Made by a program: the position numbers and the translations under genes. Under the pieces are notes generated by a model, which saw nothing but the letters and a program-made list of their open reading frames with translations, did no database searches and was not told the DNA's origin. A stretch of 64,000 nt of DNA. Origin: Desulfuromusa kysingii (GTDB taxonomy: Bacteria > Desulfobacterota > Desulfuromonadia > Desulfuromonadales > Geopsychrobacteraceae). How positions within the stretch are numbered: the stretch's first letter is position 1; every line of letters starts with the position of its first letter. The stretch spans positions 393,390-457,389 of the forward strand of contig NZ_FNQN01000001.1 in NCBI RefSeq assembly GCF_900107645.1, written 5' to 3'. Of the stretch, positions 23,398 to 27,573 are shown in pieces.

Positions 23398-23420
23398 AAG
23401 GGTGATCTCACCCTTTCTCT
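23398..23420 (+). terminator. Hairpin plus T-run between aminotransferase and aroF (possible attenuator)
   Basis: AAGGGTGA (23398-23405) and TCACCCTT (23408-23415) form a tight stem followed by TCTCTTTTT, ending just before the AAGGAG ribosome site of aroF. It looks like an intrinsic terminator placed in a leader. Confidence 0.5.
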
Positions 23421-23435
23421 TTTTAAGGAGTTTTT

Positions 23436-24443
23436 ATGCTGATTGTTATGCACCATCAAGCCACAAAAGAACAGGTTGATCAGATTATTGCTGCGGTTGA
23501 ATTGATGGGGCTGACTGCCGAACCCATCCCCGGGAGCTTGCGGACCGCAATCGGTGTCCTCGGAAATCAGGGCTATGTCGATGATGCGACTATCCGCACC
23601 TTACCGGGAGTGCGGGAAACAATTCATGTGAGTAAACCATATAAGATGGTGTCGCGTGATTTTCATCCGGTCTCCTCGGTTGTTGATGTCGCTGGTGTCA
23701 AATTCGGTGATGGCCATCTGCCAGTGATTATTGCTGGTCCCTGTTCTATTGAAACTTCAGAGCAGATGTTTGCTGCAGCAGCAGAAGTGAAAGCAGGTGG
23801 TGGTCAGATGTTGCGCGGTGGAGCTTTTAAACCACGTACCGGGCCCCACTCTTTTCAAGGGCTTGGTGTCGAAGGGTTGAAGTATCTGCAACAGGCCGGC
23901 CGTTCACAAGGGTTGCCGGTGGTGACTGAAGTGATGCGGATTGAGCAACTGGATACGGTTTGCCAATATGCTGACATGTTGCAGATTGGTGCCAGAAATA
24001 TGCAAAATTTTGATTTGCTGAAAGAGGTTGGTAAAACCCGCCATCCGGTTCTTCTCAAGCGTGGTATGAGTGCGACAATTGAAGAATTTTTAGCAGCCGC
24101 TGAGTATATTCTTGCTGAAGGTAACCCCAATATTGTCCTCTGTGAGCGTGGCATTCGAACCTTTGAAAAAGAGACTCGAAATACCTTGGATTTATCGGTA
24201 GTGCCGTTGGTTCGTGAGATGAGTCACCTGCCGATCATCGTTGATCCCAGCCACGCAACCGGGAAACGGATGCTGGTGCCGGTTATGAGTAAGGCGGCGT
24301 TAGTTGCTGGTGCTCATGGGGTGATGATGGAAGTGCACCCTAACCCCGCCATGGCTCTTTGTGACGGTGCACAGAGTTTGTCCGGAGCCGATTTTGCAGC
24401 GTTGATGCAGGAAATCAATCAGCTTCTGGACTTTTTGAACTAA
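23436..24443 (+). CDS. aroF: 3-deoxy-7-phosphoheptulonate (DAHP) synthase, type I-beta
   Basis: First step of the shikimate pathway: condenses phosphoenolpyruvate with erythrose-4-phosphate. 335 residues. The first 70 or so form the ferredoxin-like regulatory domain of Thermotoga-type enzymes (MLIVMHHQATKEQVDQII), which can mediate feedback by tyrosine or phenylalanine. The barrel has VIIAGPCSIE, GGAFKPRTGPHSFQG, QIGARNMQNFDLL, VLLKRGM and the metal-binding DPSHATGKR and EVHPNP. Good AAGGAG site. Follows the aminotransferase with a hairpin in between. Confidence 0.96.
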   Translation: MLIVMHHQATKEQVDQIIAAVELMGLTAEPIPGSLRTAIGVLGNQGYVDDATIRTLPGVRETIHVSKPYKMVSRDFHPVSSVVDVAGVKFGDGHLPVIIAGPCSIETSEQMFAAAAEVKAGGGQMLRGGAFKPRTGPHSFQGLGVEGLKYLQQAGRSQGLPVVTEVMRIEQLDTVCQYADMLQIGARNMQNFDLLKEVGKTRHPVLLKRGMSATIEEFLAAAEYILAEGNPNIVLCERGIRTFEKETRNTLDLSVVPLVREMSHLPIIVDPSHATGKRMLVPVMSKAALVAGAHGVMMEVHPNPAMALCDGAQSLSGADFAALMQEINQLLDFLN

Positions 24444-24470
24444 GTGAATTCAGAGGTGTCTGGCTAAAAA

Positions 24471-24506
24471 AAATGCCGGCTGGCTACGTATAGCCAGTCG
24501 GCATTT
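24471..24506. terminator. Strong bidirectional terminator after aroF
   Basis: AAATGCCGGCTGGCTA (24471-24486) pairs with TAGCCAGTCGGCATTT (24491-24506) with one mismatch and a 4-nt loop; A-run before and T-rich sequence after. It serves convergent aroF and the zinc-ribbon pair. Confidence 0.85.
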
Positions 24507-24529
24507 ATTGAGTGCTTATCCCGTAGTTC

Positions 24530-24730
24530 TTAAGCGTGGATGGGCTCAAGGGCAAGATTCCAGTTTTCAATGGCTTCTTCGAGGCTGTCACCTGTTGCCA
24601 TATATTCGCAATCATCATTGTTACAATATATCCCCCAGTTGCTGCGGGGAGCGTAAGAACAGGGGCCAAAAACTTTGACTTGACCACCACATCGACAAGG
24701 AGCAGGTTGTTTGACGTTCAGGTTTTCCAT
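24530..24730 (-). CDS. Small zinc-ribbon protein, Lar-like
   Basis: 66 residues. Pattern CRCGG ... W ... CNNDDC ... EEAIENWN, the layout of the short Lar-type zinc ribbons (restriction alleviation protein family, named from a prophage gene). Whether it has any anti-restriction role here is unknown; many chromosomal relatives have no known function. The ATG at 24730 is chosen for AAGGAAA upstream. It is preceded 27 bp upstream by another tiny zinc-ribbon gene on the same strand, so the two are probably co-transcribed. Confidence 0.75.
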   Translation of the reverse strand: MENLNVKQPAPCRCGGQVKVFGPCSYAPRSNWGIYCNNDDCEYMATGDSLEEAIENWNLALEPIHA

Positions 24731-24757
24731 GATTGATTTCCTTTTCACTGTTGTTAG

Positions 24758-24970
24758 TTAAGCAGCCCAGGTGTAATCATCAGCTTCAACACATTCACTC
24801 TGTCCTTCAATAAACGATAAGAGTTGGGTGTCAACAATCATATCAGCATGACCATGGTTAATTGACCAGCTGCTGTCGCAGGCCGAACATTCAACCAGAC
24901 TCTCGTTGAATTGATCTGATTTGATTTCGAGGGTCATTTGTTCATAGCTACCACAGATTGGACATCTCAT
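24758..24970 (-). CDS. Small acidic zinc-ribbon protein, function unknown
   Basis: 70 residues beginning with a ribbon: MRCPICGS, then VECSACDSSW about 20 residues later (two CxxC pairs). The C-terminal half is acidic without further motifs. Good ribosome site (AAGGATACC before ATG). Pairs with the Lar-like gene downstream. I do not recognise a family. Confidence 0.75.
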   Translation of the reverse strand: MRCPICGSYEQMTLEIKSDQFNESLVECSACDSSWSINHGHADMIVDTQLLSFIEGQSECVEADDYTWAA

Positions 24971-25368
24971 TCTGGTATCCTTTCGCTTATGTAGTTATTA
25001 TTACTTCAAGTTGGTTATTTGCCCTCTCTTGTACTATTTGTCGCTATGCGAAGTCAACAGTAACCGGTTGAAAAACGTATAAATTACACTAGGTTATGTC
25101 GATTTACGTTCTACTGTTCATACTGGCAGTTTATTTGTCTGTTGGCGTAGAGAAGAGAATGGTACGTAAAAGTCTTAACTATTTGTTTTTATTAATAACG
25201 GCAGGGTATACAGCGGTTTTATAGGCGTTTCCTGTAGAATGTGGGGGCGGTTATTCCCCATAAAATTTAGTGTGAAGAGAAAACTTTTAGTTATCCTAAA
25301 CACTCATATATGAATGATCATTGTTGTGGTAAACATAGGCAAGAGGGTTTTCTTGTTTCTGACATTTA
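24971..25368. other. 398-bp gap before priA
   Basis: Contains the promoter region of the minus-strand zinc-ribbon pair, a possible 42-codon hydrophobic reading frame (25096-25224) and the leader of priA. No RNA gene or repeat recognised. Confidence 0.6.
25096..25224 (+). CDS. Possible 42-residue membrane microprotein
   Basis: Reads MSIYVLLFILAVYLSVGVEK, then a basic turn (RMVRKS) and a second hydrophobic stretch (YLFLLITAGYTAVL). Two short membrane helices around a positive loop is a plausible small membrane protein. Against it, the only ribosome-like sequence is AGG two bases before the ATG. No family recognised. Confidence 0.25.
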   Translation: MSIYVLLFILAVYLSVGVEKRMVRKSLNYLFLLITAGYTAVL

Positions 25369-27573
25369 ATGAGGCTTATTTTGTCTGACTTCATTGCTGA
25401 TATTGCTGTTAACATCCCATTGAAACAATTGTTTTCCTACCGGATTCCTGAGTCCCTGGTGTCGTCAACAGACGTTGGAATGCGGGTGAAAATTCCCTTT
25501 GGACGGCGGCTGACAGTCGGATTTATACTCTCGATCAGGAATGGTGATGCTGCTGGCCTCAAGGATCTACAAGGGCTCTTCGAAGACGAACCGATATTAA
25601 GCTCTGAGTTGATCAAGTTGCTACGTTGGGCCGCTGATTACTATTGTCACCCAATTGGACAAGTGGTGCGAACCGCTCTTCCTGCTGCTCTCGGGAATGA
25701 GAAAACGACAGTCAAAATTCGGACAGAGGCTATTTATCAGCCCCTTGATCCAGAGATTAAACTTCGCGGCAAGACGCAGCAAGAACTTTTGACTTTTATC
25801 ATTCAGGAGAAAAGCGTTGGTTTAACCCGCATACGTGAACAATTTTCAGCACCCCATGCTGCTTTAAAGCGATTAGTTGAGGTCGGGGCTTTACAGTGTG
25901 ATGAACGGGAATTGTGTCGCGACCCATTCCGCCTGGATAAACTCCCTGTAGACCAATGCATCACTCTTAACAGCGCTCAAAGTGAGGCCGTTGATAGAAT
26001 TACATCTGCTATTGATGACAATTGTTTTTCTGGGTTTCTGCTCCATGGCGTGACCGGAAGCGGCAAGACCGAGGTCTATCTGCATAGCGTTGATCAATGT
26101 CTTGCAGCTGGCCGACAAGCGCTGGTTCTGGTTCCGGAGATTTCACTAACGCCGCAATTAGTCTCCCGTTTCAGAGCCCGGTTTGAATTAAAAGGGATTC
26201 GAATTGCTGTTTTGCATAGTGGGCTCTCTTCGGGAGAGCGCTATGACGCTTGGCGAGAGATTATGCGTAATCAGATTCAGATTGTGATCGGTGCCCGCTC
26301 TGCCGTCTTCGCCCCATTGCAAAATCTTGGCTTGATTGTGGTTGATGAGGAGCACGAATCCAGCTACAAGCAGGCAGAGGGGTTCCGTTACAACGCACGC
26401 GACTTAGCCTTGGTGCGTGGGCAACAGCAGCACTGTCCGGTTTTACTTGGCAGTGCAACCCCTTCGTTCGCCAGTTATTACCGCAGTGAGCAGGGGGCGT
26501 TGACGCGATTGACTCTGGATAAACGTGTCCACGCCGGGGATTTACCCAAGGTTGAAATCATTGACCTGAAAGAACAGGTCTGTGATGGGGAACTGTCAAA
26601 TGTCCTCATTGAGGCGATCCAACAGGCTCTGGAGCAACAAGAGCAGGTCCTGTTGCTATTGAACCGGCGTGGTTTTGCGCCATTTTTGTTATGCGCTGAT
26701 TGCGGAGAGACTTTCTGTTGTCCCAATTGTGAGATTACCTTGACCTATCATCAGCAGAAAAGAGAACTAAGATGTCACTATTGTGATTATGTCGATGTGG
26801 TACCTGAAAGCTGCCACAAGTGTCAGGGTTTGAATATTGAACCGCAAGGGGCGGGCACTGAAAAGCTTGAAGAGGAATTGGAAAAGTTATTCCCGTCCGC
26901 CCGCATAAAACGCATGGACCGGGATACAACCAGCCGTAAAGGGGCCCATCAAAACATCATGACCGAGATGATGGCGCGCAAAATTGATATTCTTGTCGGA
27001 ACCCAAATGATCGCCAAGGGTCACGATTTTCCCGGCGTCTCTTTGGTGGGAGTGTTAGCCGCAGACAGCACCCTTAATATCCCCGACTTCCGTTCCGGGG
27101 AACGAAGCTTTTCTCTATTTACACAGGTTGCCGGACGGGCAGGACGAGCCAGCGGTGGTGGTAAGGTCTATATTCAATCATACAACCCTGAGCACTATGC
27201 ATTAACCTGTGCCGCAGAGCAGGATTATCACCAATTTTATCTGCAAGAGCTTCCGTTCCGGCAGGAGTTAGGCTATCCTCCTTGTGGTCATTTGGTTAAT
27301 CTGGTTTTCTCTGGGAACAACAACCATCAAGTCCAAGCTGCTGCCAAGCAATTCAGCAGTTTTCTCTTCAGAGTTGCAGGCTCAGTTGAGATCCTCGGCC
27401 CCAGCCCATGTCCGCTCGCACGACTCAGGGGAAAAAGTCGTTATCAAATTTTGTTGAAAGCAGCGGCTCGACCCGATCTGAGGCGGTTATTGAATCGCCT
27501 TGATGAGCAGATTGCGCAACTGCCAAGACAGGTGACGCTGCATATTGATGTTGATCCAATTGACATGTTGTGA
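25369..27573 (+). CDS. priA: Primosomal protein N' (PriA helicase)
   Basis: Restarts stalled replication forks by loading the replicative helicase. 734 residues, family length. N-terminal 3'-DNA-binding domain (IPLKQLFSYRIPE, GMRVKIPFGRR), Walker A GVTGSGKTEVYLH, DEEH box VVDEEHESSYKQ, then the zinc region (CADCGETFCCPNCE; LRCHYCDY; CHKCQG) and helicase motifs (VGTQMIAKGHDFPGV, TQVAGRAGR). The start is uncertain: ATG at 25369 has a poor ribosome site, while TTG at 25381 has TGAGG six bases upstream. mltA and a Nudix gene follow. Confidence 0.96.
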   Translation: MRLILSDFIADIAVNIPLKQLFSYRIPESLVSSTDVGMRVKIPFGRRLTVGFILSIRNGDAAGLKDLQGLFEDEPILSSELIKLLRWAADYYCHPIGQVVRTALPAALGNEKTTVKIRTEAIYQPLDPEIKLRGKTQQELLTFIIQEKSVGLTRIREQFSAPHAALKRLVEVGALQCDERELCRDPFRLDKLPVDQCITLNSAQSEAVDRITSAIDDNCFSGFLLHGVTGSGKTEVYLHSVDQCLAAGRQALVLVPEISLTPQLVSRFRARFELKGIRIAVLHSGLSSGERYDAWREIMRNQIQIVIGARSAVFAPLQNLGLIVVDEEHESSYKQAEGFRYNARDLALVRGQQQHCPVLLGSATPSFASYYRSEQGALTRLTLDKRVHAGDLPKVEIIDLKEQVCDGELSNVLIEAIQQALEQQEQVLLLLNRRGFAPFLLCADCGETFCCPNCEITLTYHQQKRELRCHYCDYVDVVPESCHKCQGLNIEPQGAGTEKLEEELEKLFPSARIKRMDRDTTSRKGAHQNIMTEMMARKIDILVGTQMIAKGHDFPGVSLVGVLAADSTLNIPDFRSGERSFSLFTQVAGRAGRASGGGKVYIQSYNPEHYALTCAAEQDYHQFYLQELPFRQELGYPPCGHLVNLVFSGNNNHQVQAAAKQFSSFLFRVAGSVEILGPSPCPLARLRGKSRYQILLKAAARPDLRRLLNRLDEQIAQLPRQVTLHIDVDPIDML

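Follow-up and report, generated by a model that had tools for sequence, protein, structure and literature searches.

LysW/ArgW carrier proteins and Trm112 are small zinc ribbons that serve partner enzymes, and in LysW it is the C-terminal glutamate that carries the substrate. Proteins of the Lar/RalR type (PF14354, TIGR03655, phrog_599) are small four-cysteine ribbons with a downstream helix that ends in WN, and RalR, the Lar protein of E. coli, has been reported as a DNase (PMC4147584). VdcD, the zinc-ribbon subunit of vanillic acid decarboxylase, is described as an allosteric activator of VdcC that contacts its partner through its C-terminal tail (PMC8379154). For the single-domain zinc-finger micro-proteins of Haloferax, conditional phenotypes are reported for 12 of 16 deletions (PMC6562870).

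We analysed a 64 000-nucleotide stretch of the Desulfuromusa kysingii genome (hereafter the window), which holds two adjacent genes, P2 and P1, encoding members of this known class of small zinc-ribbon proteins. Computation establishes both as conserved genes under selection and linked as a pair that is restricted to one family of sediment bacteria. P1 shares with Lar and RalR the four-cysteine ribbon and the helix ending in WN, but has a CxC first and a CxxxxC second knuckle, misses both Lar cut-offs and is paired with P2. P2 resembles VdcD in its small size and in the same zinc-cysteine positions (3, 6, 28 and 31), whereas its tail is acidic (SFLE..SEcVEaDDY) and that of VdcD is proline-rich (PMC8379154). 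The Haloferax micro-proteins, likened here by description, also consist of one zinc finger in under 70 aa; they are archaeal, and the abstract of that study mentions no such pair (PMC6562870). Among the open-access literature matches listed, the titles and the starts of the abstracts do not name the pair. The sequence-only reading had proposed that the pair would be uncharacterised, in agreement with the lack of a named family for either gene.

The layout of the locus is given in table 1. Both open reading frames expected from that reading are present on the minus strand, co-oriented, with 66 and 70 codons, a spacing of 27 bp and good, purine-rich ribosome sites. The genes are transcribed in the reverse of their coordinate order, so that the gene said to come first and to look like Lar does look like Lar but is the second to be transcribed, behind the 70-codon P2. 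The two cysteine pairs claimed for each protein are likewise there, although those of P1 (CxC..CxxxxC) are not the usual CxxC knuckles. An alternative GTG start of P1 is also open and would give 72 aa.

Table 1. Features of the P2–P1 locus; positions are those of the window.
Feature	Coordinates	Strand	Description
DAHP synthase gene	23436-24443		flanks the pair on the P1 side; converges on the pair
Hairpin and T-run	24466-24506	.	likely terminator, 3' of P1, common to the converging DAHP synthase gene
P1	24530-24730	minus	66 aa Lar-like zinc-ribbon protein; second gene
P1 ribosome-binding site	24739-24745	minus	AAAAGGA, read from sequence
P2	24758-24970	minus	70 aa acidic zinc-ribbon protein; first gene of the unit
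P2 ribosome-binding site	24978-24983	minus	AAAGGA, read from sequence
Leader element	24998-25018	minus	anchor [AG]GTA lies 34-41 nt upstream of the P2 start
Putative promoter	25031-25057	minus	TTGACT (25052-25057), poor -10-like TAGTAC (25031-25036), spacer 15; by eye
priA	25369-27573		flanks the pair on the P2 side

Upstream of P2, a TTGAC[AT] box was read by eye in all 10 pair loci with enough upstream DNA (10 of the 11 loci used for the leader comparison; the G020 contig begins too close). A consensus promoter scan of the window found none in this upstream region. The [AG]GTA anchor of the leader element lies at the distance given in table 1 in 11/11 pair loci examined, from the 13 that exist (G024 and G037 were left out). 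As a signal for shared regulation of P1 and P2 the element was rejected: it scored well in only one of seven genes encoding P1 alone (from eight unlinked genes, with G034 left out) and two of 16 encoding P2 alone. In the P2-alone genes of L105 and L070 it beats 99% of shuffles. The hairpin behind P1 has a z-score of −4.37, with none of 200 shuffles folding as well; a terminator pattern scan of the window did not list it, and an Rfam search of positions 23400-25500 gave no match at E ≤ 1.

P1 and P2 are unrelated to each other, with no similarity between their profiles, and each belongs to an unnamed family. The P1 cysteines C12, C14, C36 and C41 are invariant in 19 sequences (an alignment without L063, which is identical to L060, and without the fragment L089), and in the predicted model (pLDDT 81.5) the CxC and CxxxxC knuckles form a ribbon, with a SLEEAIxxWN helix behind it. 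The net charge of P1 is −5. Its neighbours in VIA-align were mostly dsRNA-binding domains, at Z-scores of 4–6 (up to 5.8) that lie below the tool's trusted level. These neighbours make it possible that P1 acts on nucleic acids. A search of solved structures gave no P1 relative at E ≤ 10.

In P2, cysteines C3, C6, C28 and C31 (CxxC..CxxC) are invariant in 74 sequences, the window's included; W35, H39 and a tail around S52-F53 and E59..V61-E62..D64-D65-Y66 are conserved, giving an acidic C-terminal motif of the form SFL..SE.VE.DDY. These 74 were drawn from 80 found; the fragment L107, L118 (start unclear) and four Geomonas loci (L142, L144, L151 and L161), which share 65 to 71 of 74 residues with a kept locus, were set aside. 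Its net charge of −11 (family median −9) makes P2 very acidic, which hints at protein partners. The predicted model (pLDDT 76) has two β-hairpins and a low-confidence tail. The top Foldseek rows were VdcD chains (E 0.5, non-significant), with RPB9 lower and also non-significant; VIA-align placed unrelated lectins on top (Z-score 4.2), followed by ribbons of RPA12, NrdR, Trm112 and TFIIS at 3–4 and VdcD rows at 3.2–3.3. No row for P1 or P2 in the VIA-align lists reached a Z-score of 8, and the absence of a family from these lists excludes nothing. Among solved structures P2 found only chance-level rows (best E 0.084). Both proteins are predicted to bind zinc.

The window's P2 reaches no Pfam or NCBIfam cut-off, and the matches of its relatives are weak (best E 4.5e-5); P2 is a member of a family without a name. 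Profile comparisons used a second alignment of 27 P2 sequences, without the two-ribbon L084, fragments (L067 and the second copy in L060), L086 (70/72 residues as in L070) and matches above E 1e-16. Seven of these 27 match LysW weakly (best 8.5e-5) and five match Trm112, also weakly (best 9e-4). A role for P2 as a LysW carrier was rejected, as none of the 74 sequences ends in E and the window's P2 scores 15.9 of the 75 bits set as cut-off. Some P2 relatives in the same set have matches among phage protein families whose function is unknown (phrog_6504 in four, best 2.8e-7; phrog_10268 in nine, 3.8e-5; phrog_10675 in 10, 1.4e-4), so a distant viral link is possible. We rejected a phage origin on the lack of a close viral relative: tblastn against phages yielded nothing for P2 and one stretch for P1 (39% coverage, E 0.9), and three scans of viral contigs confirmed no relative of either protein. 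The C-terminal half of a related family of two-ribbon proteins (L075:5026-5406, L084:4906-5295 and L085:4773-5270) also resembles P2, SFL..VE.DDY tail included; these proteins measure about 126–129 aa in L075 and L084 and form a longer open frame in L085.

At E ≤ 0.01, a search of 98 related genomes detected P2 relatives in 67, of which 60 reach 2e-10 (a count that includes G026 and G081, where the protein is of the two-ribbon form), and P1 relatives in 23, with 21 strong matches (E ≤ 6e-21) once the weak ones in G062 and G075 are kept out. G015 has P2 only as the two-ribbon form. P2 is present without P1 in 46 of the 67 P2-positive genomes (40/60 at E ≤ 2e-10). All 21 P1-positive genomes have P2, versus 46 of the 77 P1-negative ones (naive p 1e-4), although this co-occurrence does not count as evidence on its own in a set of genomes that share ancestry, include several incomplete ones and, in 13 cases, have the two genes physically linked. 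In a phylum-wide sample of 297 genomes (E ≤ 1e-6), P2 was detected in 10, including one outside the class, and P1 in two, counting the window's own genome. A P2 profile scan of named genomes confirmed 100 relatives, the best 80 of which give 79 loci, with Geomonas, Geotalea, Citrifermentans, Geobacter, Desulfuromonas, Desulfuromusa, Geopsychrobacter and Pelovirga among them; Pelovirga terrestris carries the pair and Citrifermentans bremense P2 alone. Both genes are under purifying selection: from 10 genome pairs and two genes (20 comparisons), the seven with finite dS above zero gave dN/dS values of 0.04–0.12, 12 were dS-saturated with dN of 0.07–0.27, and one pair was identical. Relatives keep the reading frames, so the conservation of P1 and P2 is more than chance.

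P2 lies directly upstream of P1 in the same direction in 13 of the 21 strong P1 genomes, the window's included, and the two are apart in the other eight. The gap is 20–40 bp in 11 of the pair loci and 186 bp in two closely related ones (L063:5745-6344 in G017 and L060:4962-5561 in G024), each of which also carries a decayed second pair. Remnants of both genes of this second copy were found by search in G017, and in G024 the P1 remnant was seen by eye; since the decayed copies hold both genes, P1 and P2 were duplicated together, probably once. Among the named loci (best 80 of 100 relatives), 12 have a P2 with 61% or more identity to that of the window; P1 adjoins it in 11, and no P1 was seen in the twelfth, L105. 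All 11 coincide with contigs already counted among the 13 pair loci, and therefore add names rather than independent cases. The neighbourhood search thus bears out the suggestion of a conserved pair for 13 of 21 P1 genomes, within a single family. The same reading had allowed that the genes might not be conserved together or might be common unrelated ribbons, and this is half true, given the eight unlinked genomes and the frequency of P2 without P1. The pair is real but confined to one bacterial family, where a widespread gene is linked to a lineage-restricted partner.

The 13 pairs sit in eight different neighbourhoods. The window's pair lies between DAHP synthase and PriA genes; others are found with HI0933-like (G002), DUF218/Band 7 (G003) and MsrAB/DsrE (G001) genes, with a glycosyltransferase/HHH context in two g5 genomes, and next to an fn3 protein in G008 or a threonine dehydratase-like gene in G020, the other side being a contig end in both cases. 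The gene flanking the G020 pair is paralogous to the ilvA found in genus g4, and in five g4 genomes the pair adjoins ilvA and, where the contig reaches, ygiQ (in G035 with an extra gene between). The DAHP synthase–priA interval (24444-25368 in the window) varies within the genus, as judged from the 10 of 14 genomes that could be resolved: in five congeners the two genes are adjacent, 19–114 bp apart, with no pair between them (one of these, G002, has the pair elsewhere), and in four the interval holds, by eye, whole or part of a set comprising a methyltransferase, formate-THF ligase (fhs), threonine dehydrogenase (tdh) and Kbl.

Paired and unpaired sequences split at 100/100 in the P1 tree (20 of 21 sequences, G034 left out), and in the P2 tree the paired sequences group at 98/99 together with one unpaired sequence, L105 (12 of 13 pair loci; the G037 contig starts inside P2). 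Judged from these trees, the linkage looks like a single origin. In four of the eight unlinked genomes (G015, G022, G025 and G032) P1 is near ilvA, and G022 and G025 have P1, ilvA, ygiQ and biotin carboxylase on one contig; in genus g4 the pair lies between ilvA and ygiQ, with carboxylase genes next in G016 and G023. A local rearrangement near ilvA/ygiQ that joined P1 and P2, followed by movement as a block, would account for the data.

The likeness to Lar invites the explanation that P1 is an anti-restriction protein (or DNase) of the Lar/RalR type and P2 its helper or antitoxin. The likeness itself holds up: 18 of the 19 P1 members hit phrog_599 with E ≤ 0.1 (the best at 8e-5), and profile–profile comparison with Lar gave a probability of 77.8% over 30 columns, aligning the second knuckle and the helix (SLEEAIxxWN in P1, AxxxWN in Lar), with the P1 first knuckle reading CxC against CPxCG (CxxC) in Lar. 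The P1 arrangement has a parallel in another Lar-like family of relatives (L228:1492-1704, L229:1492-1701 and L231:1450-1662), which has a CPWCGE first knuckle, a second knuckle that is CxxxxC in L228 and L231, as in P1, and CxxxxxC in L229, and a helix of the form WC(D/E)(S/N)(V/L)..A...WN; L228 passes the Pfam Lar cut-off. P2 too matches the Lar model weakly (8/27 members, best 4.5e-5). The window's P2, however, scores 20.2 bits against a cut-off of 39.6, with the likeness confined to the CPxCG ribbon, and the window's P1 gave no match to PF14354 or TIGR03655 at E ≤ 10 in Pfam or NCBIfam; PF14354 matches appear in four of 19 P1 members, with a best E-value of 0.039. Charge is not decisive, since RalR has +5 and P1 −5 but five of the seven Lar-like proteins compared are acidic. 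The anti-restriction function that the sequence-only reading had offered as one possibility fared less well. The window's genome contains no PF14354 match at E ≤ 0.001, and the check for restriction systems proposed there found type I HSDR_N in 13 of 21 P1-positive versus 53 of 77 P1-negative genomes (p 0.60, weak HSDR_N matches counted). A search of defence models with P1 and P2 gave no match better than E 0.014 (PDC-S64 with P2). The missed cut-offs, the lack of an HSDR_N association and the housekeeping flanks leave an anti-restriction role unsupported. A toxin–antitoxin module was rejected on joint occurrence: the two genes are apart in eight of 21 P1-positive genomes, and P2, which lacks P1 as a companion in 46 of 67 genomes, is no dedicated antitoxin. 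We regard an anti-restriction P1 with P2 as its helper or antitoxin as unlikely.

P2, and hence the pair, might instead serve, as an accessory zinc-ribbon subunit, the biotin-dependent acyl-CoA carboxylase that adjoins it in many genomes, a proposal for which VdcD offers a precedent. P2 is tail-to-tail with a gene for a divergent 975-aa biotin carboxylase/BCCP protein, 95–360 nt apart, in 29 of 37 same-order P2-positive genomes outside the pair's family (P2 at E ≤ 2e-10, matched by hand; for example L068:4518-4730, L069:5262-5477 and L071:4982-5197) and is beside biotin carboxylase in 25 of the 79 named loci from the best 80 of 100 relatives. Yet the two genes are convergent and not co-transcribed, the synteny block runs further, and the genome of the window has its carboxylase on a different contig from the pair. 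Carboxylase co-occurs with P2 in 57 of 60 P2-positive versus 24 of 38 P2-negative genomes (p 8e-5), but this is nearly matched by the control ilvA (55/60 versus 23/38, p 5e-4) and partly by ygiQ (58/60 versus 31/38, p 0.026), so that a carboxylase partnership, although it was the leading candidate for the target of P2, remains a guess, and we consider it very unlikely. Less probable still is a composite in which P2 is a free-standing allosteric subunit of this divergent carboxylase of Desulfuromonadia-type bacteria and P1 a Lar-like second regulator of the same complex, drawn from anti-restriction proteins, the two being welded into a small cassette that travels through the genome as one block. 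A quite different account, doubtful but to be taken seriously, gives P1 and P2 separate household roles (zinc or redox buffering, for instance) and makes them neighbours by one accidental rearrangement. The eight genomes where they are apart, the position of P1 near ilvA in half of these, the shared contigs of G022 and G025 and the g4 arrangement between ilvA and ygiQ all agree with such a local event. An accident fits less well with a pair that has held together while moving into seven other contexts, and with the joint duplication seen in G017 and G024.

Our preferred reading, put forward tentatively and at somewhat less than an even chance, is that the locus is a two-gene unit encoding unrelated, protein-binding zinc-ribbon accessory factors, in which P1 joined P2 once and stayed. 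A self-contained unit with its own leader and its own terminator would encode P2 and P1. Through its TFIIS/RPB9/VdcD-type ribbon and acidic tail, P2 would dock on a protein or enzyme complex of the cell and modulate this target, on the model of VdcD activating VdcC; no UbiD-type gene was present among the 20 neighbour proteins scanned. P1, the Lar-like ribbon-plus-helix protein, would have come to lie beside P2 a single time, in the common ancestor of a single family, and then been kept there, and the two may interact. The role of accessory factors fits the small size of the proteins, the acidic tail of P2, the housekeeping surroundings and the VdcD precedent. In favour of a bond between the two genes, the linkage is intact across eight flanking contexts while the DAHP synthase–PriA site varies; on the other hand, a block of approximately 500 bp can move as a unit without any functional bond.

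Very small zinc proteins often go without a name, and here are two unnamed conserved families, one of them widespread in its order. Until a partner is found the pair is of modest interest. The presence of a Lar-like P1 among housekeeping genes is a caution against naming proteins as anti-restriction factors from motifs, and the natural pairing of P1 with P2 provides an interaction that is open to test.
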